Below are positions 1 through 16,692 of a DNA stretch of 64,000 nt, one piece after another. Position 1 is the stretch's first letter. Each line of letters opens with the position of its first letter. The stretch comes from Prostheceraeus crozeri (Eukaryota; Platyhelminthes; Polycladida; Euryleptidae): NCBI GenBank assembly GCA_907163375.1, contig CAJQUW010003055.1, forward strand, positions 248,001 to 312,000, written 5' to 3'. The position numbers and the translations under genes were made by a program. The notes under the pieces were generated by a model. The model ran no database searches. It was not told the origin of the DNA and saw only the letters and a program-made list of their open reading frames with translations.

Positions 1-191
1 GCAAATATAATTATACTATTTGAAATAAATGCAAGAAACTTAAGTGATTTGTTAAGAGATTTATGTGTAAGAAATAAAGATGAATTTAAACAATCGTGTA
101 ACAATGCTTGGTCAAAGATTATGGCTTCATTACAATTAATATTGATAAAAAAATTCATGATAGAGTTATAGAAGATTTGTTCTCTGACTAA
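1..191 (+). pseudogene. 3' end of a gene truncated by the window edge, frameshifted
   Basis: Frame 1 is open from base 1 to a TAG at 169-171 (56 codons). A second frame from about 141 reads on for 16 codons to TAA at 189-191 (ending IEDLFSD), so the real C-terminus was probably reached through a small indel near 135-150. The 5' part is outside the window. The pattern 'ILFEINARNL...FKQSCNNAW' loosely recalls the iF-x-x-n-l...FK-x-x-C-x-x-W region of A32/FtsK-HerA-type packaging ATPases of Polintons. No Walker motif is visible, so this is a weak hint. It lies on the same strand as the polymerase, 120 bp before the next ORF. Confidence 0.35.
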
Positions 192-230
192 GCTTCGCCC
201 CGATTGAAAGTCGATAGAAAATATTTTCGC

Positions 231-269
231 GGAGTGATCGAACGGAGTGATCGAACGGAGTGATCGAAT
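231..269. repeat. 13-bp tandem repeat, three copies
   Basis: The unit cggagtgatcgaa occurs three times head to tail in the gap between the first two genes. It is GC-richer than its surroundings, like the other small repeats of this element. It lacks the two-hairpin structure of the larger family. Confidence 0.7.
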
Positions 270-310
270 ATTATTTCTTATAAATTTTTTGTTAATAAAA
301 ATAAAAAAAT

Positions 311-625
311 ATGTTGAATGCTTACAAGATAGAACATGTACCAGTTTTAAAAGATTATCGACATCCTACAAATCCTGTAAATTCGAAGAAAGAAGTTAGA
401 TTTTATTATCATCATAAATACGTAGCGCTCGTTACAGATTATAAAACAAAACATGGTATTAAACCGTGTGTTAAAACAAAAGACTTTCCACTTTGTTTAA
501 GAAGTTTCCGAGTATTTTTGGCATACAATAATTTATGGTGGTTGCTTAAGAAAGAATATTTAACAACACATGAATTAGAAACATTACATCAATTACATAT
601 TCCTGTGTATATCCAACGAAGTTGA
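311..625 (+). CDS. hypothetical protein (104 aa) upstream of PolB
   Basis: An ATG-started 104-codon ORF in the same direction as PolB, ending 46 bp before the polymerase reading frame begins. The product is basic and rich in aromatic residues (HHK, FYYHHK, NNLWWLL), with no signal peptide or membrane segment. I recognise no family. The position between the left-edge gene and PolB, and the AT-rich codon use shared with PolB, favour a real element gene. A small GAACC-GA-GGTTC hairpin (628-639) lies just after its stop. Confidence 0.5.
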   Translation: MLNAYKIEHVPVLKDYRHPTNPVNSKKEVRFYYHHKYVALVTDYKTKHGIKPCVKTKDFPLCLRSFRVFLAYNNLWWLLKKEYLTTHELETLHQLHIPVYIQRS

Positions 626-627
626 CG

Positions 628-639
628 GAACCGAGGTTC
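628..639. repeat. single hairpin, GAACC-GA-GGTTC
   Basis: A 5-bp perfect stem with a 2-nt loop between the 104-aa gene and PolB. It matches the first hairpin of the 30-bp two-hairpin repeats found elsewhere in the element. The bases after it (TATG) look like a truncated second half. It could conceivably act as a transcript 3' signal, but its family resemblance favours a repeat. Confidence 0.5.
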
Positions 640-2010
640 TATGTAAAAATACATTTTTTCTTTTAAAAAATATGAATCGTGAAATGTCTCTCGGACAAAC
701 GTCTAGGATTGATGAATTAAGCAAGAAACAAACTGCTGAGTTTGATGCACAAATTAAACATAGTAAACGTAGTAAACGTATTAAAAAACAGAAACGTACT
801 AGGCGTAGTATTAGACGTAATACTAAAAAACAGAAAAGTGGAACAAAAGAAATATTAGAAACCCCTATTACTGATATCTTTTTTGATGATAGAATTAAGG
901 ATGAACTTGGTGATGATTTATGTAATTTATTTAATCCAAATGACATTAAAAAAAATATGAAAATGTATCTTTTATTAATGTAGTAAATGATATGCGGAAA
1001 CTTTTAGCAAATGGTAAAATTATTAATTTACTTGGAAAAGTTGTTGAAGATCAGGAAAATATAATTCAAAATTTTTACGTAACCTTCTATAATAAAAATT
1101 CATTTGAAACATGGTTTTCGAATCTGGATGAGAAATCCGATGCTAACGAATGGATTTTTACAGGTAATATTAAATATGAAGATTTTGGAATGAAGTTAGT
1201 ACAAAAATCACATAAAGGTGCAGGTATTAATATGAAATATAGAATCAAAGAATATTTCGGTGAATATTGTTATATTCCTTCTGAAGATTTTTGTTTTATT
1301 AAATGTTATAATGTTTTACGAAGTTTTAATGAAGAACAAGGAGAAATGATGAAAGAAATGTTTAATAATTTTTTATATAAAGAGAAAGCCACATCTAGAA
1401 CAGGAGTAATGTCAAACTGCAAATTTTCTCAATTCAATAAATATTTTGGAGAATGTGTTCAATATTATAGTCCTGCCAATCGTCATTTAAATCCTAGAGG
1501 AATTGAAACGTTTCATAATTATGTTTATTACAATTATTTTCACGAAGCTTCAACAATTGGACACTATTGTTTAATTAATAAATCTCATAAATTAAAAGCT
1601 ATTAGAGAAATTGAAAATAATTTCAAACCCATATATAAAACAGTTACTGATGAAAATCTAACAACGCGTCCATATAAAATCATAACAAAGAAAAAAATTG
1701 ACTATAGTTCAACATATATTTGGGATCTCGAAACTTTTCCTGATCCTTACTGTTCAACAGCTCATCCTATTCCTTATGCTGTAGGAGGTATTAATTTTAA
1801 TAAATTTATATGTTGCTTACCGAAACAAAGATTGAAAGAATTAGAAACACGTTTGTTAAGTGATATGATTAAAATTAAACGATCAAAAGATGAAGATGAA
1901 ATTAAAAAAACTTAAAAAACAAATTAATGAGTATAATAATTTAACTGAATTAGAATTTAATAAACTTCGAAATTGTGTGAAAATATTTACGAGAACTGAT
2001 GATGATGAAT

Positions 2011-2108
2011 GTCCAATCGGGGGAAACCCAGAGGACGCATGTCCGATCGGGGGAAACCCAGAGGACGCATGTCCGATCGGGGGAAACCCAGAGGACGCAT
2101 GTCCGATC
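2011..2108 (+). repeat. 30-bp two-hairpin repeat, 3.3 copies, in frame inside PolB
   Basis: Three exact or near-exact 30-bp units starting at 2011, 2041 and 2071, plus a partial. Each adds ten residues (CPIGGNPEDA) between Exo I and Exo II. The unit is far GC-richer than the gene around it. It contains GGG/CCC around AAA and a perfect GGAC-GCAT-GTCC hairpin (for example 2033-2044). The GATCGG head and length match the intergenic units at 8671 and 9237. Confidence 0.9.
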
Positions 2109-2818
2109 CATCAATTTTTTAAAACTCTTGGAAAATTTAATTATTCGAAAGTAACTTTAATAGCTCACAATTCATCAGGTTTTGATTCCTATTTTCCGAT
2201 TAAAGCTAATTTTAAATTATCTAAACCGCCTCTTAAAACTTCAAGAGGAATATTAACTGCTTCATTACAAAATCCTTATACAACTGAATGTGTTAGTAGA
2301 TATATTCAAAAATCTTTTAGATTTAAAAACAATATGAAAAAAGATTCACCTTCAGGTAAATTAGCACTTCAAACTATTATAATGAAATGTAGTTATCAAC
2401 ATGTAAAAACAAGTCTTTCTAAATGGTGTGAGAATTTTAAAATTCCTACGAATGTGTGTAAATTAAATTATGAAATTGGAGACATAACACATGAAAATTA
2501 TAAAGAAAAAGAAAATGATTGGAGACCATATTTAGTTAACGATATTCTTTCTTTAGCTTTTGTATCTACAAATATAATAATGTTATGCGAGATTTAGTTG
2601 GTGAAGATATAACTACTAATTTAACATCCTCTGCTTTAACATTTAACAGTTGGATGAAAAGCGTACAAAATGACAATATAAATATTCATTCTCATATAGA
2701 TTTATGGGCTAGAAATTATATTAGAAAATCTGTTAAAGGTGGAAGAGTTTCAGCAAATATAAGAAAATACATATCGCCATTTTGTAGCATCTTGTTACCA
2801 ATATTAAAACAGTATTTA

Positions 2819-2880
2819 CCTGGTCGCTACGCTGGTGGGGCTTTGTCCCCTGGTCGCTACGCTGGGGGGACTTTGTCCCT
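2819..2880 (+). repeat. 30-bp hairpin repeat, two copies, in frame inside PolB
   Basis: Units at 2819-2848 and 2849-2878 encode PGRYAGGALS and PGRYAGGTLS just before the palm domain. Each ends in a hairpin: GGGGC-TTT-GTCCC with one G-T pair in copy 1, and GGGAC-TTT-GTCCC, fully paired, in copy 2. A weak GC-TAC-GC pair precedes it. On the opposite strand the order matches the other two-hairpin units. Confidence 0.85.
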
Positions 2881-3778
2881 TGGAAGTAATTTAATAGATT
2901 TAATGAAACAGTATCGAGATTTAGGAGATAAAACTGAAATTTGTAAGAAAATTTCAAATCAACTACTTGAACAAAAAAATGAATTTCTAATGGCTTTTGA
3001 TGCAACATCTTTATATCCATCAGCTATGTATGATGAAAATTCAGAATACCCTGAAGCTGAATCCGCTAGAAAATTTAGACAAAAAGAAGAACGAGAAATA
3101 GTATATAAATTTAATACTGAAACATTTAGACCTAAAACTAGAATATTTACAGTTGTGTTTCAATATCCCAATGATATGTTTTTTCAACCAGTTCCTATAA
3201 AAGATAAAGTTAAAAATCAAAATTATAATTCTCATGTAAAAGTAATCAGGTTTAGAAATAGTATACGTTATGATGTATTAACTTCTGTAGACATACAAGA
3301 AATTGTTAGATGTGGGGGAAAAATCTTACATATTACTGATGGTATAATTTATGAAAAAAATTATCAAGTTTCACCATTTCGAAATTATATTGAAAAACTT
3401 TTTAATTTGAGAAAAAGATATAAAACAGAAGGAAATATTGTAGGCGATGAGTTAATTAAATTATTGATGAATTCACTATATGGAAAAACCGTACAAAAAG
3501 ATATAACCACTAAATATCATTTATGGAATGAGAATACATTGAGAAAAAATTTCACTCAAGAAGTAAAAGATTATGAAAAATTAAATGATGAACAATATTT
3601 AGCGAAAGTAGAAATGGAAGATGATGAATTTCTTAAAACTAATATTGTAAAAGATGGGAAGACGTCATTCATGCCATCACACTTAGGTTCTTTTATTCTT
3701 TCTCACTCTAGAAGAATCATGAATAACTTTATTTTAGAAATTAATGGTTTCAACGAAAAATACATTCATTATACAGAT

Positions 3779-4827
3779 TCAGTAACAGCTGACACGCCTG
3801 TAATATTGAGAAAGAATAATTTATTATTTATTTCTAGAATAGATAGTATTGTAAACAACTATAAAATTAATCCGTTTGAAATTAATGGCGATATGAAAGA
3901 AATTTCATTTGTTGATAATTTAGAAATTTATACTCATAATGGATGGAGTAAAGTAAAACAAATTATTAGACATCTTACAAATAAAAGTATTTATCGAATA
4001 AGAACAAAAATGGCAATAGTAGATGTTACTGAAGATCATTCATTGTTAGATGAAATAGGTAATGAAATAAAGCCACAAGAATTGAATATAGGAACAAATT
4101 TACTACATAATAAATTATTTTACGCGACAATACAATCACATTGAAACAAATTGTAAGTGATATTTATGTTAATGATCCACCTAATTTAAGATGTAAGCAA
4201 GCATTTATAGAAGGGTTCTTTTTAGGAGGTGGCTCTGCTGGAATCTATAATTATGAATCAGGAGTCAGATATTGTTGTACTTTATATAACCAAGATCTTA
4301 ACCTCTTAATTAAATTAAAAACATATATTAATGAAGTTTATAACAATGATTGTAAAATATATGATACGATGAGATCATCTAGGGTATACAAACTTAATTT
4401 TCAAAATCCAAAACAATATGCCACATACTTTAGTGAAAATTATTATAATCAGTTTAAAGAAAAACGTGTTCCTTGGTATGTTCTAAATGCTGAATATAAT
4501 ATTAGATATTGGTTCTTTGTTGGATTTTTTGCAGCAGATGGGAGCAAGAAATCTTCTTTTACAAGTAAATATGCAATTATTCGTTTTACACAGAAAAATA
4601 AAGAAACCTTTAGAGGTTTATACAATTTGGCATCATCTCTAGGTATAAATTTGGTAGTAAACGAAAGACAAGATAAATCATTATGCTTTAGTGCGTGTCA
4701 AGTTAAAAATAATATTACCAAAGATGTCACCACTGTAAGATACTTAAATAATAAAAAACAATATGTTTATGACATTGAAACAGAAAATGGGGCATTTAAT
4801 TGTGGTTTTCCATTAATTGTAAAAAAC
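3779..4827 (+). other. intein with LAGLIDADG homing endonuclease domain in PolB motif C
   Basis: About 350 codons that would be removed by protein splicing. The N-terminal block begins with Ser in SVTADTPVILR. A block-B-like TEDHSLL follows near 4030. The C-terminal block is VYDIETENGAF...IVKN, ending in Asn at 4825-4827, with Thr as the first residue after it. Between them lie two LAGLIDADG helices, FIEGFFLGGGS (about 4204) and FVGFFAADGS (about 4516). In the first the usual acidic residue is Gly; in the second the Asp is present. The usual penultimate His is Lys. One frameshift occurs near 4140. The insertion site in the YxDTDS motif is the classical PolB intein site known from archaea and giant viruses. 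Confidence 0.9.
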
Positions 4828-5330
4828 ACTGATTCAATATACATTTCTAATGAACTCTTCAATAAATTAGATGCTGCTGGATATGTTGGGGGAGAATTGT
4901 GTCAAGGCAAAAATGATTATGGAAATGGTGGAATTATTTTTGCAAAGTTTATTGCTCCTAAAATAAAATATTGTATTACTGTAGATGAACAAGGGAGACT
5001 TAGTGAAAAGAAAACATTCAAAGAATATTCACAAGATAAAGTAAAAGTAGAAGATTTTCTAAAATTATATTCGGGTAAAACATTATCGACTACAGTTAAT
5101 AAACCATGGAAAATATCTTTAGAAACTGGAATTAGTATTCCTGATAAAAATAATAATACTGAAGAAGAAAAATTTTCTGGTCAAATAAATATTCTTAAAC
5201 GTCAAGCACCTGATGAAAATGGAATTATGTTACCTTATAACGGAGAAGATATTCAAGCTGAAATATTTCAAACAATCGTCAGTGAGAGTAATTTAAGTGA
5301 TGATGATGACACGTGGGAATAATATTTTTT

Positions 5331-5475
5331 TATTACATCTAAAAACTTATTACATCTAAAAACGTATTACATCTTAAATCTTATTACATCTAAAAACTTA
5401 TTACATCTAAAAAATTATTACATCTAAAAACTTATTACATCTAAAATTTATGTCTAGAAAATTTATATCTAAAAA
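5331..5475. repeat. AT-rich direct repeats after PolB
   Basis: Seven or more copies of ttacatctaaaaa at roughly 17-21 bp spacing fill the gap between the PolB stop and the convergent minus-strand gene. The spacers are only a few bases, unlike a CRISPR. It could be part of a shared transcript 3' region. Confidence 0.75.
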
Positions 5476-5509
5476 TATAATTAATTAATTATGGCACTCA
5501 CAGCGTTTA

Positions 5510-6061
5510 TTATTGGTTTTTATGTTCAATTGTTCGTTTGGCGTCAGCTAATGTAGATTTGGCATCAAATATTATTGGTGTTGTTTTTTTCAAGGCATTT
5601 CTTTCATCATTAATTCCAGATTTTAAACATTTTAATGTATCATTATTTGTTAATCTGTTAGGTATTGCTATACCAAATGTTGTAATTGTTGAATATTTGA
5701 CATAAATTGAATATTTGACATAGATTGAATTTCTTGAACAGGTTGCATATTTTGAATAGGTTGCATATTTTGAATAGGTTGCATATTTTGAATAGGTTGC
5801 ATATTTTGAATAGGTCGCATATTTTGTACAGGTTGCATATTTTGTTGAGATTGTTCTATAAGTTGGCGGCCCTGTAGTATCGACGTTGTTCGATGATGTT
5901 GTTGATTGTTCAATAGTTTGATCGTCCCGTTTTTGTGATAAGGTTCTATTTAAAGAAAATATTACTTTCTGCCGTTGTTCAATTAAGTTTAATATTTTCT
6001 TATCAATTGTATAATTTATGTGCGAGTCTCCGATCCATTCAAAAATTCTTCCTATATCCAA
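5510..6061 (-). CDS. hypothetical protein with hexapeptide repeat region (183 aa)
   Basis: An ORF convergent with PolB. The N-terminal 55 residues (MDIGRIFEWIGDSHINYT..., then a polar Ser/Thr/Asn stretch) and the C-terminal 60 residues look like ordinary protein. The middle is an 18-bp tandem repeat (about 5738-5840). Because the unit is a multiple of three, a second frame is also open there (5668-5913, reading NMQPIQ repeats). That frame looks more natural (Q/N-rich linker) than the Tyr/Thr/Lys repeats of the long frame, so the true product may use it with compensating shifts. I do not recognise the family. Confidence 0.5.
   Translation of the reverse strand: MDIGRIFEWIGDSHINYTIDKKILNLIEQRQKVIFSLNRTLSQKRDDQTIEQSTTSSNNVDTTGPPTYRTISTKYATCTKYATYSKYATYSKYATYSKYATYSKYATCSRNSIYVKYSIYVKYSTITTFGIAIPNRLTNNDTLKCLKSGINDERNALKKTTPIIFDAKSTLADAKRTIEHKNQ
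5738..5840. repeat. 18-bp tandem repeat (about five to six units)
   Basis: The unit gttgcatattttgaatag repeats with few changes inside the gene at 5510-6061. Two overlapping reading frames stay open through it. Confidence 0.9.
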
Positions 6062-6727
6062 GTGTATGAATATTTTACTTCGTGCTTGCAGATGTAAGAT
6101 TTCCCTTGTTAACTTCTAAAGTCTTCTCCACTTTGTCTCCAATCGAACAGATCTTTCAGTAGATCCAACCATTCTGGCGATAAAATTTAAAATAAGATTG
6201 TAATGCGTCACGTTTTATTAATTGTGTGTGTGTTTAAATAGTGAGTGAAAATTATTAATGGTGATCTAAGCAAAGCGGCATTGTAGGTGAATGAAGTTTG
6301 CTTGACAACATACGGGTATGACATGACGGCTATGATTAAATGTACTTGGATGACAATGGGGAAATTGCAGTATCACAACTCTAACCGGATCCAAATCCAT
6401 TTACGAAACCAGAACAAGAAAAGTTTTGGTTTTGGTTCGACAGTCGGTCTCGACTGTCGACACTGCGATATTGTATTGAATGATTGCTATAACAACAGAA
6501 TATTCCCTCAAAGCAGAGAATGAATTAATAGATTGCTTTTATGTAATTAACGCTATGTTATGAATGTACAACCCGTATGATCGCCTCAAATAATCATGCG
6601 GTTTGAGAAATGTAGTAACAGATGTCGCTATTGTCTTAATACAGATAAAGCAAACAATATCCTCTTAATGGGAGTTCATAAAAATAAAATGGATCATTGT
6701 TAAACAAGACATTTTATTCAATTTAAA
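6062..6727. other. gap without a recognisable gene
   Basis: Composition is more balanced than in the flanking viral genes. A 78-codon plus-strand ORF (6287-6523) has no recognisable features. I see no hairpin unit and no coding signal that I trust. It may be a later insertion or a decayed gene between the repeat gene and the protease. Confidence 0.4.
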
Positions 6728-7224
6728 ATGAGCAACATAAATGATTTCTTAAAACAATACGGCAAACAAACCACGACAAATTTCGATTTAAATAAGATCG
6801 CAAATCAATTAGGAATAAAGAATTTTCACATCCTAATGAGAGACGAATTACAATTCCTAAAAGATGTGCGAAGCACTAGCTCTGCTAATAAACCGATTCC
6901 TTTGATTTCAGAACAAATCTTCATACGTCAGATCAAAAAGGACTACATCGGTCAGGGGGACAAAGAAATATAAACGGTTCTGTTTATTATTTTGACCGCC
7001 CAGAGGCTGAGAACTATTGGCGCGACTCTTATGGATTGCCTCCATCAAATGAAGTCAAAGAATTACTTAGAAATGGAACTTATAATACATTTCAAATTCA
7101 AAAACCAGGAACTACTTATTGTGGTCAATTATGTCTTTATGTTTTATTGAAATTACAGGAACGAGTACCATTTCTAGATATTATGTTAGAATTGAACAAG
7201 GGAATCTCATTCCCGAAACGTTAG
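6728..7224 (+). pseudogene. adenain-like cysteine protease of the Polinton, frameshifted
   Basis: Polinton proteases resemble adenovirus protease and mature capsid proteins. The first frame (6728 to about 6900) holds LGIKNFHILMRDEL, the usual start of the fold. The frame then shifts by one near 6880-6910 and continues as NLHTSDQKGLHR...GSVYYFD...DSYG, then PGTTYCGQLCLYVL with the catalytic Cys. GLHR stands where GTHW is expected: the His is kept, Thr and Trp are replaced. The conserved FDS-aromatic-G stretch is interrupted by exactly ten extra codons (6997-7026). The nearest 3' neighbour is the convergent integrase gene, 62 bp away. Almost certainly inactive as read. Confidence 0.72.
6997..7026 (+). 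repeat. 30-bp in-frame insertion in the protease
   Basis: Ten codons (RPEAENYWRD) lie between FD and SYG of a stretch that is normally contiguous in this protease family. It is GC-richer than its surroundings, begins CGCC and carries GGCG near its end, and leaves gac at both junctions. It has the length of the two-hairpin repeats but only weak similarity to them (CCCAGAGG shared with the PolB unit). Confidence 0.5.
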
Positions 7225-7286
7225 TTCCAATAATAATGATAATTAAAAATCAAGCAAAGCTAGCTAGCTAAAGCGCCACCTAAAGG

Positions 7287-8519
7287 TTAAAACTCGCTTC
7301 GTTGTAATTCATTTTGATAAAATCGGCCTCTGATAGCTTCATCATCTAAATCTTTGATTTCGTAAGTAATCGGATAAGTTTGATTTATTTTACAAACTTC
7401 AAATATTTCTTTAGTCCAATAGCCAACAAAGCCTTTTTCAAATTTATTTTTATACTTAAATATTCTAACTCTATCTCCAATCTTAAATTTCGGCTTAAGT
7501 TTCTGCAAATTCGGATTACTCTCATTCGAATAATTATTTTCGAATATTTTCTTTCGTATTAAATCATGTTTGTCAGAAGCATTCTTTGGAGTTTCTTCAA
7601 TACCTGAATGAATCTTATTGTTATACTCTTCTACAACTCCTGGTAATATCTTCAACCATTTCTGATTTCCTTGCTCAGTAAATTTCTTAAAAATTTTATT
7701 TTTTAATAATCTATTGAATCGCTCAATTACTACAGCCTTTCCTGCATTCTCAGTTGAATAAACTGAGCCTTGGCTATGACTTTCGTCTGTTTCAAATAGT
7801 GAATGAACATTTCCGTTATAAAATTCCGACCCTTTATCAACAAACAATTTCCTTGGCTTTCTATTACTTTCTTCAAAGATTTCTTCAAACGCATATTTAA
7901 CTGACAGACCACTTTTGTTTTTTAAAGGCTTTACCCAAGCGTATCGTGTATATAAATCTATAACGGTCAATGCGTATTTGTAGTCCCTTTCATTCGGCAT
8001 ATGAATAAGATCAGCACTACAAATATCATCTTTTTTAAATACTTTTACTTTCAATAAATATTTAGGCCTTCTATATTCCTTGTGAATTTCGGAGGCATAG
8101 CGTCCTAGGTCATTCGATATTTCAGACGAGTAGCTTTCAGAGTTATGAGTTTTGTCTATCCCCTGGCCAAAAAGCATTTTTGCTTGTAAAGCTTTCTTAA
8201 CAAACATTCTTTCAATTATTTCTCTAAATTTAGGATTTTGAATACTATCTAATTCTTGAATCATCTTCTTATCAGCTACATGTCGAAAACTTAGGTCATG
8301 ATTTCGATAATCTAAATCATGTCTGTAAGCTGCTTCATCTACTCTGTTTATTGGTTCTTCACCTGGTTTCGGAGTATTATTCTCATCTAGTCTTATATCT
8401 AATCGAGTTCCTGGACCGGTATATGAATGACCAGGAAGATGTTTTTCTTTCGAATATTTACTCCAAATAAATCGAGGAAAGTTTTCTAATGTTTTTTGTA
8501 TGTCACCTCCGGAATGCAA
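7287..8519 (-). CDS. PLA2-domain/retroviral-type integrase fusion (about 410 aa or more)
   Basis: Integrates element DNA; the fused PLA2 domain is of the type parvovirus capsids use to breach membranes. Residues about 30-72 show the Ca2+ loop YTGPGT and catalytic HDLDYR (His67-Asp68) with VDEAA before it. Residues about 145-400 are an rve integrase: EIHKEYRRPKY entry, catalytic Asp170 (SADLIHM), Asp228 (VDKGSEF), Glu266 (VIERFNR), then a C-terminal SH3/chromo-like part (KIGDRVRIFKYK). All catalytic residues are present and the frame is uninterrupted. The codon at 8517-8519 is TTG, and the first in-frame ATG lies after the PLA2 core (residue 86). The true start is therefore probably upstream, in another frame beginning MNSTNSENL at 8641, with a small indel near 8525-8560. 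Confidence 0.88.
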   Translation of the reverse strand: MHSGGDIQKTLENFPRFIWSKYSKEKHLPGHSYTGPGTRLDIRLDENNTPKPGEEPINRVDEAAYRHDLDYRNHDLSFRHVADKKMIQELDSIQNPKFREIIERMFVKKALQAKMLFGQGIDKTHNSESYSSEISNDLGRYASEIHKEYRRPKYLLKVKVFKKDDICSADLIHMPNERDYKYALTVIDLYTRYAWVKPLKNKSGLSVKYAFEEIFEESNRKPRKLFVDKGSEFYNGNVHSLFETDESHSQGSVYSTENAGKAVVIERFNRLLKNKIFKKFTEQGNQKWLKILPGVVEEYNNKIHSGIEETPKNASDKHDLIRKKIFENNYSNESNPNLQKLKPKFKIGDRVRIFKYKNKFEKGFVGYWTKEIFEVCKINQTYPITYEIKDLDDEAIRGRFYQNELQRSEF

Positions 8520-8524
8520 CGAAG

Positions 8525-8641
8525 TTAAATCACCTCCGCTATGCTGACAATTTGAGGTTTAATGTACTTTAAGACATAATCCATTAGATCTAGATTTGAA
8601 ATTTTTAATTTAATTAAATTTTCGGAATTTGTAGAATTCAT
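8525..8641 (-). pseudogene. probable N-terminal segment of the PLA2-integrase gene, out of frame
   Basis: A frame starting MNSTNSENLIKLKISNL at 8641 and ending at a stop at 8525-8527. It overlaps the open but ATG-less upstream extension of the PLA2 frame, in which HSGGD occurs twice. Its polar, short-helix character and exact abutment suggest the displaced start of the downstream gene. The call rests on position, not on a recognised domain. Confidence 0.4.
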
Positions 8642-8670
8642 TTTAAAAGATAAAATAAATGTTTTACCTA

Positions 8671-8730
8671 ATCGGACCAAAGGTCCTGAGGCTTTAGCCG
8701 ATCGGACCAAAGGTCCTGAGGTTATTACCG
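8671..8730. repeat. two-hairpin 30-bp repeat, two copies
   Basis: Units start at 8671 and 8701. Each has GGACC-AAA-GGTCC (8674-8686 in copy 1). A TGA spacer follows. The second hairpin GGCT-TT-AGCC (8690-8699) is complete in copy 1 and degenerate in copy 2. They sit between the PLA2-integrase gene and the small hydrophobic gene. Confidence 0.9.
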
Positions 8731-8760
8731 AACATATATTCCAGAACCATCTTTAGTTTC

Positions 8761-9192
8761 TTAAATTTCAACTAAATCATCAACATTGTGAAGAATATTT
8801 TTAAGAACTCGTTTTCCTTCATCAACTAAATTTAATTTACTAATAAAATTATCTACTATTCCTTCTCCCCTGGCAACTTTCTCTAACTCTCTATTATGAC
8901 GTTTTTGTTCTTCTAATGCTGCCTTCTCTGATTTATTTTTATTTACTGCTTGGACAATACCAGCTGTCCCACCTGCAACACTTCCTGCTGCTGCTATGCC
9001 TCCTATTATTAGTGGAATTAATGGGAGAATCCCGCCATTCTTTTCTTCTTGTCATTGAATATTCTCTATCATTGGTTTACTTATGTAATATTTCTTTTTG
9101 TCAATCGTAATAGTTTTAGGTGTATTTTTGTCAACAATATTACCTAATTTTAATTCAACAGTTTTATTATTATTACTTTTCGCTTCCGACAT
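8761..9192 (-). pseudogene. small hydrophobic virion-type protein with one in-frame TGA
   Basis: Reads from ATG (9190-9192) to TAA (8761-8763), 143 codons, broken only by a TGA at 9052-9054. The N-terminal half is polar and lysine-rich. After the TGA comes NGGILPLIPLIIGG and then an Ala/Gly-rich stretch, followed by a charged helix. A Gly-Gly hydrophobic segment before a charged helix is typical of the small pVI/pX-like core proteins of adenovirus-related elements. The assignment is by character only. The location between capsid and PLA2-integrase genes fits a virion role. Confidence 0.5.
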
Positions 9193-9236
9193 TTTTAATA
9201 AAAAATTTTAAGTTAGGAAAAATTTTAATTAACCAA

Positions 9237-9325
9237 TCGGACCAAAGGTCCTCAGGTTACTAACCTATCGGAGCGAAGCTCCTCTGGCTTTAGCCGATCT
9301 GACCAAAGGTCCTCAGGTTAATAAC
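9237..9325. repeat. two-hairpin repeat, three diverged copies
   Basis: Copies at about 31-bp spacing. Copy 1 has GGACC-AAA-GGTCC (9239-9251). Copy 2 has GGAGC-GAA-GCTCC (9270-9282) followed by GGCT-TT-AGCC (9286-9295). Copy 3 has GACC-AAA-GGTC (9301-9311). Copy 2 swaps both strands of one stem pair (C-G to G-C), so pairing is preserved while sequence changes. They overlap the end of the capsid gene. Confidence 0.9.
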
Positions 9326-10652
9326 CTATCCTAGCCATCTTTCCATTTAGAATTTCAATAGAATATTTTACATCTTCTAGCAATAAACCATAAGCCATCA
9401 ATGAAGTTATGGAATCTTTTTTCAATATTAATTGTTACATCACAACCAGTCTTGATAATATCTTCAGATTGTGCACTTAAATCGAAGCAGAAAATTGGAT
9501 ATAAATGTCTCCAATCTCCAGGAGTTAATTGTGGTTCAACTCCAAATTCTATTCAAAGATTTCTATAAGTATCATATCCTTCCATAAATTGATTATTGGT
9601 ATAATCGAATCTTAATGGATCAATTGGATATCGGGTTTGATTTAAAGCAACTTGTAAACTTCGAATTGTATCAATATGAAAAAGATTGTTGTTCTTATCA
9701 AAACTTGGAGAATTATTTCTTTGAAATGTTAGTAATAAATATCTTGGAGTATTCGAAGTTCTAGTAAAATGCCAGTTAAATCATTGTTCGGAAAAAGTTA
9801 CTGAAGTAGCAGTACGCTTTAGAAAATTTACTGGAATTGGTTTGTTAGTATTTATCTTTTTGCAATAGCTAATTCGACCTCTAAACTAGGAGTAATATTC
9901 TTAATCCAAAATTCAAGTCTATCAATTTTTAAATATGCTTTTTTTCCAGTCTTACCATAAAAGATTAATTCATTATTTGCTGTGCGATGAATTATTAATT
10001 TAAATTTTAATTGACATGATATTTTGTCATAATCTAAATATCCGAATAATGGAGACAATGACCAATTTACTGTCTGTTTACTTTTCTTGTTAAATTCACG
10101 TCTTTCTTTATATGCACTATTGTTTGTTTTATTTAAATGATTTGCAATATTTTCTACATCTTTCGCAATTCCTGCGGCATCTGTTCCAGCGTGAGTTAAA
10201 TCATTAACAATTATACCATCATTAGTATCAGGAAACCAACCTTCGATTTCATGCTTTTTATTATTTTCACCAATTGTTATAAATCTAAGCATTGTATCAA
10301 TTACACCTGGAGAATCACTTATTGTTTCTATATTTTGAGTTGCAACATCCAAACGCATTTGTGTAAATAATCTTGGAAAAAAATTATTCTCTAATGCAAT
10401 ATTATCACTATCTGGTAATGGTGTTGTAAAATTGGCATCACTATATAAAGAATATTCACAGTGTAAAAAGGAACCAGGTAGATATATATAACTCTGCTGA
10501 TTATCAACTTCAAAAATTAAATCAACTCCAGTATTTACTCTACTAGAAGATCCGGTATTCATAGCAATTCTTATATAGTCATTCTTTTTTTGATTGTAAC
10601 TGACGAACGGAGGATCGTCTAATCTAAATTTATTTTCGATAAGAGAAGACAT
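9318..10652 (-). pseudogene. probable major capsid protein (double jelly-roll type), frameshifted, two in-frame TGA
   Basis: The largest structural gene of the block. An uninterrupted frame from ATG 10650-10652 (MSSLIENKFRL; a further 14 codons upstream are open but look untranslated) runs to 9852. Homologous-looking sequence continues in the next frame after an A5 run near 9857. It contains TGA at 9781-9783 and 9553-9555 and shifts again near 9385 to end in TAA at 9318-9320. Beta-rich segments such as SYIYLPGSFLHC and the C-terminal YGLLLEDVKYSIEI resemble Polinton capsid proteins of the F54H12.2 group as I remember them. Total about 440 codons, reasonable for the family. No homology search was run. 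Confidence 0.65.
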
Positions 10653-10734
10653 TTTTAAAAAAATAATTAGACTTTTTTGTATTTTCTCACACATAGAAAA
10701 AATTTTACTAGAAAAATTTTACTTAAATATAATT

Positions 10735-11133
10735 TTAGAATTTTGCTAGACCATTGCCTCTTATTTCTTCAATTGAACGAACCGTAGGTTCTATGGCTAC
10801 GCCTGATTTCTTCTCCTGTTTACTATCAGACCCCACAGCTATGTTAGCAATTTTGTTTTTTGTTTCCTCTGAAAGTTTTTTTAATTTTTTTAGTTCTTCA
10901 GAATCATTCTTAAGTTTACGAATAGCTTCTAGTTGTTTTAATTCGTTTTGTGACTTAACAGCATTTGATATTGCACTAGCTGTACTACCTATAGCAGCTG
11001 CTCCTTTTGCAGCAGATGTAATCAAATCTTTATTATTTTTAATTAAGTTAACGATACTTCCTATGCCAGGAAAGATGCCAGCTCCTTCTTTTTGAATTGT
11101 TTCTACACTGTAATAATGGTAAACAGATTTCAT
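10735..11133 (-). CDS. small Gly/Ala-rich virion-type protein (132 aa)
   Basis: Intact ATG-started ORF. After about 15 residues it shows EGAGIFPGIGSIVNLI, then an Ala-rich segment (AAKGAAAIGSTASAI) and a long charged coiled coil (EELKKLKKLSEETKNK). A GAGIFP-type motif ahead of an amphipathic Ala/Gly helix is a common layout of pVI/pX-like minor virion proteins in adenovirus-like and Polinton elements, with likely membrane or core roles. The C-terminal codons (about 10,779-10,803) are made of a two-hairpin repeat unit, so the end of the protein is repeat-derived. It lies 82 bp upstream of the capsid start in transcription order. Confidence 0.6.
   Translation of the reverse strand: MKSVYHYYSVETIQKEGAGIFPGIGSIVNLIKNNKDLITSAAKGAAAIGSTASAISNAVKSQNELKQLEAIRKLKNDSEELKKLKKLSEETKNKIANIAVGSDSKQEKKSGVAIEPTVRSIEEIRGNGLAKF
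10779..10803. repeat. two-hairpin repeat inside the 132-aa gene
   Basis: GAACC-GTA-GGTTC (10779-10791), spacer TAT, then GGC-TAC-GCC (10795-10803). Both hairpins are perfect but share almost no stem bases with the 8671 units. It lies in the coding frame near the C-terminus. Confidence 0.85.
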
Positions 11134-11267
11134 AGATGGTTCATGTGCTATTTTTTTATTTGAAGCAAAATGTTTAAGATTGTGTTTTTAAATTATAGGC
11201 ATTTTTTAGGATTAAATTTGTCTTTTGGAAAAAATATTTACGTTAAGATTTACGTGCGTCATCAAGA

Positions 11268-11303
11268 TTTGGTCCGATCGGCTAAAGCCTCTGAACAATG
11301 TTC
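11268..11303. repeat. two-hairpin repeat in reverse orientation
   Basis: GGCT-AA-AGCC (11280-11289), spacer TCT, then GAAC-AAT-GTTC (11293-11303), preceded by GGTCCGATC. Read on the minus strand this has the same order as the other units. It lies between the 132-aa and 94-aa genes. Confidence 0.85.
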
Positions 11304-11305
11304 TA

Positions 11306-11590
11306 TCAAGATTTACGTTTGTGAATGGACAACAACTTCGTGATAACATTATTAATTTTCCGTTGTACGTTATCTATTGCGTCAAGTAGCGTGTGATGTA
11401 CTTTAATTTCTTTTCTATTAACTTGCATTTTCTGCTGATTAATCTTCAACGCCGTTTTAAGAGCATTCAATTTAACTTTAAGAACATCGAACTGATTTTT
11501 AACGGCATCTAACTGTTCTTTATTTCCTTTAGAGTTTTCTTGAAAATGTTTCTTTACTTCGTTTTCTAAATTGATTTTAAGAGTTTTCAT
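11306..11590 (-). CDS. coiled-coil protein (94 aa)
   Basis: Almost entirely heptad-like charged helix (VKKHFQENSKGNKEQLDAV...), ending IHKRKS. Its ATG (11588-11590) follows directly after the TAA of the preceding gene and is in the same frame. The two may therefore be one long fibre-type protein split by a stop, or two proteins from one transcript. Function is inferred only as structural or coiled-coil. Confidence 0.5.
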   Translation of the reverse strand: MKTLKINLENEVKKHFQENSKGNKEQLDAVKNQFDVLKVKLNALKTALKINQQKMQVNRKEIKVHHTLLDAIDNVQRKINNVITKLLSIHKRKS

Positions 11591-12193
11591 TTATTTATTT
11601 TTTTGATTAAGTGAGTTTACTTCATTTATTATTCTATTCATCTTTTTCATTTGTTGGGTAATTTTAGAACTTAATTCATCAACACTTTTTTGGAATGTAG
11701 TTTGCAACTTATTTAAATTCTTAAAAATTATTTTAGGAAGTTTTTCTATTTCATCTTCTAATTGTTCTTTCAATAATTTTATCTGATGTTTATTTTTAAT
11801 GACTGCAGATTTTAAATTTATAGAAAGTAATATTAAAATTTTTGATTGTTCTGAAATCTTTTTAAAAAGTTTTGCTATATCTGCTTCTAGCTCTCTATCC
11901 TTTTTATCAAGTTCTAATAATTTTTCGTTTAATGATTTGTCATTAAGTTTAAGCAACTTTAATTCATTCATCAGTGGAACCAAAACATCGTTTATATATT
12001 TTTCCTTTAAGTCATTGATTTGTGTATCAACATACTGTTTATTTGTCAACTCTGTATTTTGTTGCGGAAGAATAGAAAGATGCAATGGACCAGATAAAAC
12101 GTCTCCAGTTTTCATGATATAATTTTCTATTTCTATTTCTGATTCACGATTATTCGGGATATATGCACCTCCACCAACATTTGGTAACATCAT
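11591..12193 (-). CDS. fibre-like coiled-coil protein (about 201 aa)
   Basis: The likely start is the ATG pair at 12188-12193 (MMLPNVGGGAY); the frame is open 31 codons further. Residues about 25-60 read MKTGDVLSGPLHLSIL and then LTNKQYVDTQI. This is the 'T/SGxLxL...xATKQYVD' signature seen in tail fibres and other trimeric attachment stalks. The remaining 140 residues are coiled coil. A role as a virion spike or fibre is an inference from this motif. It is followed without a gap by the in-frame 94-aa coiled coil. Confidence 0.6.
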   Translation of the reverse strand: MMLPNVGGGAYIPNNRESEIEIENYIMKTGDVLSGPLHLSILPQQNTELTNKQYVDTQINDLKEKYINDVLVPLMNELKLLKLNDKSLNEKLLELDKKDRELEADIAKLFKKISEQSKILILLSINLKSAVIKNKHQIKLLKEQLEDEIEKLPKIIFKNLNKLQTTFQKSVDELSSKITQQMKKMNRIINEVNSLNQKNK

Positions 12194-12354
12194 TTTTTTA
12201 ACAATAAAAGATATATATGTCATGAAAATAAAAATTGTTTTCTCATGAAAATAAAAAATAAATTTTTCACGGATCAACAAAGACAATGAATAGACATCAG
12301 ATCACTCAGTCAATTAGCCACATCAAGAGAACAATTGTCAAGTGCGAGTGTCAG

Positions 12355-14080: not shown

Positions 14081-16692
14081 TATCCCTCAAGGGTTCAACG
14101 GCTTGAACTTAGCGTAAAGGTTCAACGTGGAACATTTTGTTCCTATGACTATAATGCAAATTATGTGTTTATCAAATGCTTTCAAATTACACTAGATGTT
14201 AAGATATGCCTATCTGTACTATAGCAGCAAGAAGTTTATGTCCCTAAGTATCTATTTCTACCTTTATACTCGATCATCTGTGTCATAAAGGTATATATTG
14301 CATCACTGAATTTGAAGCTTTTTTATGAATTAATTGTTTTTTAATTACATATATGCTATGGGATTTGTACTAATAAGAAGTGAAAACTCCATGTATAACA
14401 TCAAATGTAATTCTCTCAGTATGTATATATTACAAAACATTGTACAAAACATGTGAAATTTCATGTATCACTCGATTTCGTAAGTACATAATGCATAGTC
14501 ATCAATATGAGCCTCAATGCTCAAGACTACAGATCACATGAGCTAGAAGCAGTTTTCTTAACAACTCTTCGATGTTTGATGGACACACCGGTTTGCAACA
14601 TGAGTCACAGAATGACCTTGTCTTCCGCTTGCACGAGCAGCATCTTCCACTGTTCGGTCGTCGCGAGCTGATCGGTCTAGGAGCCGGTTCTTGCACATGA
14701 TATCCGACTTGAGACGCCGCCTGTCGAATATGTACTTGGAGTGAATTTCGCAAACAATGCAAACGCTTTTTGGCAAAAGGTCTTGCGAGTTCGAATCCCA
14801 AATCCTTCAAATAAGCTTTCTTGTCATAGGAAGGAAATGCACTTCGCATGAGGATGAATGAGTTGTAGCATCCTACATCGATACAGTTAAAAAACAGGAG
14901 CAGAGGCCATCTGTTTGTTTTTCTTCTTACTGTATACTCTTCGACTTGCTGATCAAGAAGATCTACAACACCCTTTGTTTTATTGTATGATTTAGTTATC
15001 ATAGTGGGTCGATGTCTTTCAGTGTCATCTGTCCTAGAATCATGATTTCCGGAAGACATGAGTATCACATTCGTTCTTTTCTTGGGACAGTAGGAGAGGA
15101 TCTTGATCTTGTTTTCATGATTGTATACCGATCGTACATCATATCTGTCACGGTTCTCAGTAGAACGAATGTAATCTGTTATCTCCCGTCTATGAGATCG
15201 AACAGTTCCTAGAATTGTCAGACTTTTCGACAATATTGTCGATATTTAGGAAGACAGCTAAGTCATGCGAAGGGAAAAAATTATCACAAACGATGTTACG
15301 TCCTGAGCAGTAGAAAGGACTTGTCAACTCCTTTACTATGTCAAATGCCAAATTTTGGTGGACGCCCTCTCCGTCTCGCTCGTTATATATGTATCCTCCC
15401 TTCAAGGCATAACCGGAATCCGCTTCACATATCCAGAATATCTTGACGCCGTACTTATGCGGCTTGGCATGTAAGTCTTTCCTCGATACCCTAACAGTTG
15501 TTCGTCAACTGTTAGGTTCTCACTCGGGACATAGAACTTGAGGAACTGTGAACTCAAAAGATTCCATTGGTCAGAGAAAGCTGCCAGCACGTCACAGTCG
15601 GCTTACGTGCCTCTCGTGTGTGATAGTCATCAAAACGTATAGCTGTCAGAAAAAATTTGAACCTTGCTTTGGATATTGTAGCACGATAAAAGGGCTTACT
15701 GTCTTGCACATTCCGCAAGTCGTCGATGTAAGTGAAGCTGTCGCGATCCGCTCCAGCCCGCAGAAGTAAAGATATACAAGCCTTCAATTCATCCATTGAA
15801 AAAACACCTTTGTTACGAGGATAAGGAGATGAAACATTGACCTCACTTTGATGTTGGTACACCTCAATGTATGATACAAAATTTCTTCCGTGAAAATAAG
15901 TGAAAACGATTCAATTATCGACGAAGGATGTACGCTGCTTCTTGATCGCTGTCTAAGAATGTCACGGTCACGCAATCGCTGCGGATAAGGCAACTTCGAG
16001 TATATGATTCCCTTTGAATTGCACAGATCAGAAGATGAATTATCATCGGCGATATCGTCATCTGAGTCACTGGAATCGTCATTTGTCGGTAGTGGGACCA
16101 GGATTGCGCTCTGATTTTCGATTTCCATAGTCGAAAGGTCTTCCGTATTATCCTCGGGATCATCCTCATCGGCCGGGGAAATCTGAACTATCTAGTTGAG
16201 ACTTCATCAACAATATTCAAAGCATTACGCGCCTACAAAAATGTCATTCGACGCGGTCTACCGGCGGCCATTTCGTCGCAGATTGTGAAAGTCTCTTGAA
16301 TTTCGCGCCAGACGAAAATTTGAAAAATGTTGCACCTGCCATTATTTTGCAGCTGAGGAAGATACTACTGGAATCTCATGAGCTCTAGTATCATGCTTGA
16401 TAACAGTGTAATCACTTGAAGATATGTATTCAGTTACTCAGACCCTGTCAAAGTATGACGAATCTGCATTTAAGTCATTGGAACAAAATGTTCCACGTTG
16501 AACCTTGACGTGAAGTTTTGATCTAGAACCGAAACTAATTTAGGTACGAACTCTATATTAGAGCATGCTTAGGGTATTGTACTCTAGTTTGAAGTTCTGG
16601 AGTATGAAAAACCAGGATTATATAGTTTTATCAGGATAAACATTTCATTAGCCGGTGGAACAAAATGTTCCACGTTGAACCTTTGAGGGATA
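14081..16692 (-). mobile_element. PiggyBac-type transposon remnant
   Basis: Encloses a broken PiggyBac transposase. Candidate inverted ends are tatccctcaa (14081-14090) and ttgagggata (16683-16692). Inside them is a 27-bp inverted pair, 14117-14143 and 16657-16683, with an extra copy at 16480-16506. I do not see TTAA duplications at these points, so the exact limits are provisional. Confidence 0.65.
14514..16169 (-). pseudogene. PiggyBac transposase, broken into at least four frames
   Basis: Cut-and-paste transposase of the DDD type. In order from 16,169 downward: an acidic N-terminus (SDSDDDIADD), the Tnp core start (GVFSMDELKACISLLL), LTVDEQLLGYRG with the first Asp, IVCDNFFPSHDL with the second, KGVVDLLDQQVEEY with the third, and a C-terminal Cys-rich domain (CCSCKRKTRSFCDSC). 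All three catalytic Asp are visible, but frame changes near 15,850, 15,560, 15,400 and 15,200 make it inactive. Confidence 0.85.

Follow-up and report, generated by a model that had tools for sequence, protein, structure and literature searches.

We analyzed a window of 64,000 nucleotides (nt) from the genome of the polyclad flatworm Prostheceraeus crozeri (contig CAJQUW010003055.1, forward-strand positions 248,001 to 312,000), the first 12.3 kilobases (kb) of which are Polinton sequence, and found that this Polinton carries a family of short, GC-rich units that each fold, in most cases, into two adjacent hairpins and that in some cases stand inside genes. The Polinton part of the window encodes PolB (PF03175), which carries a LAGLIDADG-type insertion, and an integrase that includes a phospholipase-A2-like domain; the top PolB matches are proteins of Lottia gigantea together with unnamed ENA and JGI proteins. 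Our scan for adjacent pairs of GC-rich hairpins returned 14 rows in window positions 1–12300, against a mean of 0.2 and a maximum of 2 in 100 Markov shuffles, where several rows can describe one unit (the three units at 2011 account for 6 of the 14) and where rows 6438 and 6866 are not among the sites that we treat as units. The rest of the window stands at background, with 7 rows against 5.8 in 20 shuffles, and the window gave no Rfam match at gathering score. The units lie where a preliminary description of this DNA had put them, and further sites of the family occur at ~7199 and ~7982, which are empty in the window and filled in other Polinton copies, and at ~8505.

A typical unit is 28 nt long and consists of a C, hairpin A (a stem of 3–6 base pairs (bp), mostly with a 3-nt loop), a spacer of 2–3 nt, hairpin B and a G, and arrays of such units read as AT[28 nt]AT[28 nt]AT. 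GC-rich two-hairpin 28-mers flanked by AT mostly have C first and G last; in a few of them the first base is T or the last base is T or A. The shared two-hairpin architecture that the preliminary description had ascribed to six full sites is present at five of them; at 2819 there is one good hairpin (GGGAC/GTCCC), and the second is not clearly paired. The GATCGG motif described beside the units does recur, but it consists of the AT duplication plus the opening CGG of the unit.

Within the PolB gene of the window copy, three tandem units stand on the plus strand at the 2011 site (2018–2045, 2048–2075 and 2078–2105), with AT between the second and its neighbors; the first of these, the 28-nt unit C(GGGGGAAACCC)AGA(GGACGCATGTCC)G, is in frame in a piece of the PolB open reading frame (ORF). 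The PolB 2819 site holds a 28-nt unit with one clear hairpin (2822–2849, plus strand) followed by a second unit (2852–2879, plus strand). Further along the plus strand, the 8671 array comprises the 28-nt unit CGGACCAAAGGTCCTGAGGCTTTAGCCG (8673–8700), where other copies have from zero to about five units, and a 29-nt unit with the second hairpin GGTTATTACC (8703–8731), for which copy L022 provides an empty allele and the comparison with L014 an AT duplication. Three plus-strand units form the 9237 array, namely two of 29 nt (9238–9266 and 9299–9327) on either side of CGGAGCGAAGCTCCTCTGGCTTTAGCCG (9269–9296), a 28-mer that is also present in unrelated contexts. The 28-nt unit AACGAACCGTAGGTTCTATGGCTACGCC at the 10779 site (10776–10803, plus strand) lies within a minus-strand ORF of 132 amino acids; the site is empty in L016 and filled in L024, with a net difference of +30 nt, and several copies have a shortened form of the insert. 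That the GGCTACGCC arm at this site is ordinary gene sequence was ruled out, as the arm belongs to the insert. The 11268 site holds a unit, as described before, but it resolves into a single 26-nt minus-strand unit with AT on either side (11279–11304), beside the stop of the ORF at 11306–11590, and a truncated remnant of a neighboring minus-strand unit (11268–11278, a GGACC arm) where other copies have full arrays. A single plus-strand hairpin, GAACC-GA-GGTTC (628–639), directly past the stop of the ORF at 311–625, is a candidate member of the family.

The three additional sites differ in how often they are occupied. The site at 7189–7202, empty in the window, is filled in 12 of the 19 alignment rows listed, one of which is changed (L022), and the site inside the integrase ORF (7977–7991), likewise empty in the window, is empty in 18 of 20 rows, with L016 and L018 as the two filled ones. 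The third site, where the integrase ORF has its 5′ end (8495–8510), is occupied in the window by another stretch, of 27 nt; other copies have either nothing there or inserts of 33 or 39 nt. Elsewhere in the element, L013 has a 36-nt GC-rich insert near window position 11098 that passes our two-hairpin test, L019 has a 42-nt GC-rich insert near 8866 that fails it, and the regions around ~8800 and ~11200 have 33 distinct 16-mers in common in the same orientation.

Comparison of Polinton copies within the genome revealed that a given site can be filled in one copy and empty in another. At PolB 2819, 0, 1, 2 and 3 units are present in 2, 5, 9 and 4 of 20 copies, respectively (L048 with a 1-nt deletion). 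At PolB 2011, 19 of 20 other copies have one unit, L034 has two and the window has three; no empty allele occurs among these 20 copies (L029–L048, taken as exact matches to a PolB anchor), and the predicted empty sequence occurs three times genome-wide (control 0), a check that probes the net 30 nt and not the length of the duplication. The empty sites that the preliminary description had called for are thus present in both PolB positions. Among six homologous proteins that extend across the 2011 position, four from Lottia cleanly lack the segment and two are poorly aligned there, and among the best 120 of 311 PolB homologs, those that span 2819 have a variable linker there, without the peptide of the unit, so that the unit peptides are not ordinary conserved protein in these PolB relatives. 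The best 120 of 562 aligned integrase homologs show no insertion of at least seven residues with the 7982 peptide; the homologs P0230 and P0185 carry other insertions near this position. Three filled copies (L061, L064 and L065) show no differences from two empty ones (L010 and L019) in the flanks compared, which indicates that some of the changes are recent, whether by gain or by precise loss. We also applied the two-hairpin test to GC-rich clusters of insertions or deletions (indels), using 19 strings that represent the commonest allele per cluster at a GC content of at least 0.4, out of 33 clusters; 12 of the 19 pass, against 2.24 expected from base shuffles.

The junctions show that a defined unit inserts with duplicated flanking target bases. 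In 14 of 15 filled/empty pairs, the junction shows a direct repeat of 2 nt or longer, as do all 11 sites when the best pair per site is taken, against 0.16 for random inserts. The net length is +30 nt in 10 of the 15 pairs and 29, 31, 33, 33 and 39 nt in the other five. Two sites with natural empty alleles are clean: AAATTT becomes AAAT[28 nt]ATTT at the first (empty alleles AAATTT and AAATTC), and TAATTT becomes TAAT[28 nt]ATTT at the second. The insert is CGGAGCGAAGCTCCTCTGGCTTTAGCCG in both cases, and the two sites are unrelated to each other and lie outside the mapped Polinton genes. The repeat is exactly 2 nt at both of these sites as well as at 8671 and 10779, and AT is possible as the repeat at 6 of the 11 sites. 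Given the two clean sites, an earlier reading of a 3-bp duplication (GTC, ATC and GCT) was replaced by one of 2 bp, and we infer that the duplication is 2 bp throughout.

A 28-nt unit plus a 2-nt duplication adds 30 nt and therefore keeps the reading frame. Consistent with the in-frame insertion proposed in the preliminary description, net differences in the pairs compared are divisible by three at all ten sites inside listed ORFs (2011, 2819, 6885, 7982, 8144, 8505, 10750, 10779, 10829 and 11098). Nets of 29 and 31 occur at gene-end and other sites. Four sites lie at or just past stop codons, those at 628 and 11268 relative to listed ORFs and those at 8671 and 9237 as judged by eye.

The family is abundant: two stem variants alone exceed 13,000 copies in the 2.05-gigabase genome, with 6850 occurrences of GGACCAAAGGTCCT (5 for the reversed pattern) and 6615 of the GGAGC variant TCGGAGCNNNGCTCCT (control 35). 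The PolB anchor, with at most two mismatches, occurs 2278 times (control 3). All 20 loci with GGACCAAAGGTCCT that we compared (L009–L028) are Polinton copies, 72–97% identical to the window in pieces of at least 150 nt; because they were selected for holding this sequence, filled alleles are over-represented among them at 8671, 9237 and 11268. In 20 more short loci, the sequence on either side of the unit matches Polinton copies in every case. For the GGAGC variant we compared 20 loci. Three of them align at the 9237 site with 20 of 21 reference Polinton loci, and the other 17 match 13 (11 loci), 12 (one locus) or 4 (five loci) of the reference loci in parts beside the stretch mapped to the window. 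Partly because listed places of this variant form inverted pairs ~18 kb apart, the 17 loci probably represent the ends or other parts of the Polinton element. The Polinton setting given in the preliminary description therefore applies to 40 of 40 loci of one variant, and for the other variant to 3 of 20, with 17 of 20 flanking the mapped parts. Overall, 43 of 60 sampled loci lie in mapped Polinton parts and 17 in flanking sequence, the sampled places being the head of the 100 listed and not a random draw; of the other loci used here, L049–L051 were selected for a variant base and L089–L108 partly for spacing. Three double-hairpin pattern scans and a PolB scan of IMG/VR gave no match, and a profile search of other collections, based on 18 PolB sequences, returned 256 pattern matches with no relative among them.

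Identical units also occur in surroundings that are otherwise unrelated. The best alignment between L089 and L090 covers only 34 nt, AAT[28]ATT, at 100% identity, L089 and L107 have 32 nt in common, and one 28-mer recurs unchanged in three contexts that are unrelated. The sites at 8671, 9237 and 11268 have dozens of 16-mers in common, inverted at 11268, and 18 distinct 16-mers are common to 7205 and 10779. Together with presence and absence at orthologous sites, the identical unit in unrelated contexts bears out the mobility that had been proposed. For the unit AGACTTTGTCNTAGAACCTTCGGTT, we counted 301 copies genome-wide (control 0), and 22 of 22 copies examined stand at one nucleotide of the integrase ORF, with a flanking repeat that matches the haplotype of the target (GTC in 14 copies, ATC in 6 and ATT/ATC in 2). 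This pattern suggests repeated insertion at one spot of the integrase gene; alternatives are parallel transitions toward A/T or patch conversion.

The stems vary in sequence and remain paired, which the preliminary description had taken to imply selection on the fold. Genome-wide, the paired form TCGGACCNNNGGTCCT occurs 5550 times (control 57), and the paired stems, at 5550 and 6615, far outnumber the mispaired TCGGAGCNNNGGTCCT at 67 (control 7), in a test that covers three of the four combinations, the fourth being the mispaired TCGGACCNNNGCTCCT, for which there is no count. In 21 sequences, 47 of 49 stems are paired, but the loop is tied to the stem (AAA with GGACC and GAA with GGAGC), so that two founder lineages, or correction of the palindrome during copying, could give the same pairing. 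The evidence for compensatory change beyond shared descent is therefore suggestive and not proven. Numerous further stem types are present among the units. Triloop hairpins with stems of at least 5 bp number 184 in the Polinton sequence, against a shuffle mean of 44.7, and 113 of the 184 combine a C-G closing pair with the loop AAA/TTT, GAA/TTC, GTA, TCC or TGC; the hairpin copies are related, and these counts are not independent. The rest of the window has 50 triloop hairpins with scattered loops (shuffle mean of 34.3, maximum of 47). Read on one strand, the favored triloops are AAA and GNA, and in single-stranded DNA, hairpins of the type C(GNA)G show unusual stability.

On balance, and with modest confidence, we interpret the units as non-autonomous mobile mini-elements, a family resident in this genome's Polintons that acts like the GC clusters of yeast mitochondria. 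A unit would enter at a dinucleotide, most often AT, which would then stand on both sides of it. A putative endonuclease acting in trans would break the target with a stagger of 2 nt. As a folded single strand, the unit would be joined into the break, and the gaps would then be filled. Handling as a folded single strand is suggested by the hairpins, which are the common feature of distant units, and by Polinton replication, which is protein-primed in this family and would expose single strands. The enzyme is probably not the Polinton integrase, because Polinton integration duplicates 6 bp (PMC10045372, in the portion available to us) and the repeat here is of only 2 nt at the two clean sites, at 8671 and at 10779. 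Copies could persist because 30 nt amounts to ten codons and several sites lie at gene ends. A more specific account, in which 28-bp micro-transposons move as folded single strands during replication of an animal virus-like DNA element, duplicate 2 bp (AT) on insertion, may enter repeatedly at a favored target base and can live inside essential genes as ten codons, duplication included, is conceivable as a whole, and we advance it tentatively.

Several observations weigh against the mobile-element interpretation or parts of it. The repeat lacks AT at 8505, 10750, 7205, 10779, 2819 and one 7982 haplotype, and at 7 of 11 sites one pair or more gives a repeat of 3–6 nt, so that a 2-bp reading is one option among several there. 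One of the two 8505 pairs gives a 1-nt repeat, with flanks that differ by substitution, and the other gives 6 nt. The unit at 2819 has no clear second hairpin, and 7 of the 19 GC-rich indel clusters fail the two-hairpin test. Single units fold modestly better than dinucleotide shuffles (z of −1.0 to −2.0, n = 5), and pairing in a fixed register is weak, at 0.339 against 0.263 for the A stem (shuffle maximum of 0.345) and 0.281 against 0.232 for the B stem (shuffle maximum of 0.323), in a set of 95 extracted 28-mers that is contaminated by unrelated sequence. GC-rich indels without hairpins (18, 24, 30 and 33 nt) in the same genes are also multiples of three, and off-frame changes occur near sites in single copies (L025, L027, L028, L038 and L048), which indicates that frame keeping reflects constraint on the genes and not the units alone. 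Finally, the AAC carried in the 10779 unit also flanks the 7205 unit and looks like a copied donor flank, which favors template switching.

Template switching during Polinton replication is the main rival, and we regard it as rather unlikely. A paused nascent 3′ end would anneal to the border of a remote unit by a few bases, often AT, copy the unit and return; the repeats would be microhomology, and copying of one arm from the other would keep the stems perfect. Such a process would accommodate junction repeats that range from 1 to 6 nt, the 16-mers shared by 7205 and 10779 together with the flank AAC, the single-step intermediates GGACC/GGTTC and GAACC/GGTCC at the 8671 site and the mosaic-looking haplotype patches, as in filled L051, which differs from empty L024 by 0.4% in the flanks, yet differs in the bases adjacent to the insert. 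It accounts less readily for identical 28-nt ends at unrelated sites that have AT alone in common, for a repeat that tracks three target haplotypes at one integrase site and for the six sites where the repeat lacks AT and is still duplicated. The variation in repeat length and the apparent donor flank at 10779 are the chief reasons to keep it under consideration. A second alternative, that selection keeps the hairpins as signals that function in Polinton RNA or DNA, for example at transcript ends, would agree with the sites at or just past stops (628, 11268, 8671 and 9237) and with stems that vary yet stay paired; we consider it very unlikely, as some copies do without the unit at every site shown with an empty allele and as units occur in either orientation, within the ORFs of PolB and the integrase and also beyond the mapped genes. 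That the units are old, immobile tandem repeats, passed on with the Polintons and lengthened or shortened by slippage, is extremely unlikely, for although the 30-bp arrays vary in unit number and hairpins flanked by direct repeats tend to be lost precisely, identical units stand in non-homologous contexts, including the 34-nt identical stretch, and natural empty alleles hold a single copy of the duplicated bases.

Two hallmarks of mobile palindromic mini-elements, presence or absence at orthologous sites and two GC-rich hairpins, are found in the mobile units proposed here, with the exception of 2819 for the second. Rickettsia palindromic elements also insert in frame into protein genes, but they are longer than these units and bacterial. 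Double-hairpin mini-elements have been discussed for organelle DNA, with their way of moving left unsettled (PMC4478555, PMC2800124 and PMC2670323; our statements on these and the other cited sources extend to the portions available to us). The closest in behavior are the yeast mitochondrial GC clusters such as GC42 (PMC4478555), which likewise have a short flanking duplication; the commonest duplication here is AT and not AG, and GC42 is a mitochondrial element of 42 nt, whereas the units here measure 28 nt and reside in a nuclear virus-like element. The closest in shape are the double-hairpin elements of Allomyces mitochondria, which have two hairpins, are proposed to be mobile and also occur inside genes; the available part of that source reports them without flanking duplications (PMC2800124), whereas at least 2 nt are repeated at 11 of 11 sites here. 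The organelle palindromes of Volvox are likewise short and selfish, occur in both orientations and have loops of 3–5 nt, but they average 50 nt, occupy intergenic and intronic organelle DNA and, according to their authors, are inert in their nuclear copies (PMC2670323). ISL2EU transposons of the PHIS superfamily duplicate AT at A|AT|T (PMC4482050), as happens at the two clean CGGAGCGAAGCTCCTCTGGCTTTAGCCG sites; the other sites read N|AT|C or have no AT. ISL2EU elements are kilobases long and encode a DDE transposase and a YqaJ protein between terminal repeats of 6–259 bp that usually start with GG (PMC4482050), whereas the units here are 28 bp long, start with CGG and have ends, CGG/CCG, of 3 bp, with no transposase seen, and the likeness may at most serve as a lead. 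Hairpin repeats in giant viruses are the subject of PMC5799277. As the preliminary description had supposed, we found no such family described for Polintons, Mavericks or adintoviruses in the titles and abstract openings of the open-licence papers listed.

The Polinton that houses the units varies in other ways. PolB in the window copy is made up of four overlapping ORFs (992–5322). Its LAGLIDADG-type insertion (3779–4827) is missing from L022, where the flanks meet at 683–684, and this intein-like insert thus varies in presence or absence between Polinton copies. PolB lies next to the integrase end in the window and in L026, but next to the 12.2-kb end in L020, L022 and L024, which reflects either two gene orders or a rearrangement. 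The window also contains tandem repeats of 17 bp (5330–5446), 18 bp (5688–5844) and 13 bp (230–268), and the 13-bp repeat unit, CGGAGTGATCGAA, also holds CGG and GATCG. Repeats of ~109 bp with inner palindromes lie beside the mapped Polinton part (L028 1222–1658, and similarly in other loci), and one family of hairpin units is located in sequence of this kind. Beyond the Polinton part, a minus-strand ORF at 14514–15233 has what we take, by eye, to be a resemblance to a piggyBac-type transposase.

Thousands of copies of the units described here are present in a nuclear virus-derived family, so that a single genome offers both occupied and vacant versions of a given site. This allows direct measurement of how long the duplication is, which targets are preferred, whether insertions recur and what the donor flanks are. 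The units further show how virus-like DNA can gain new peptide segments in frame.

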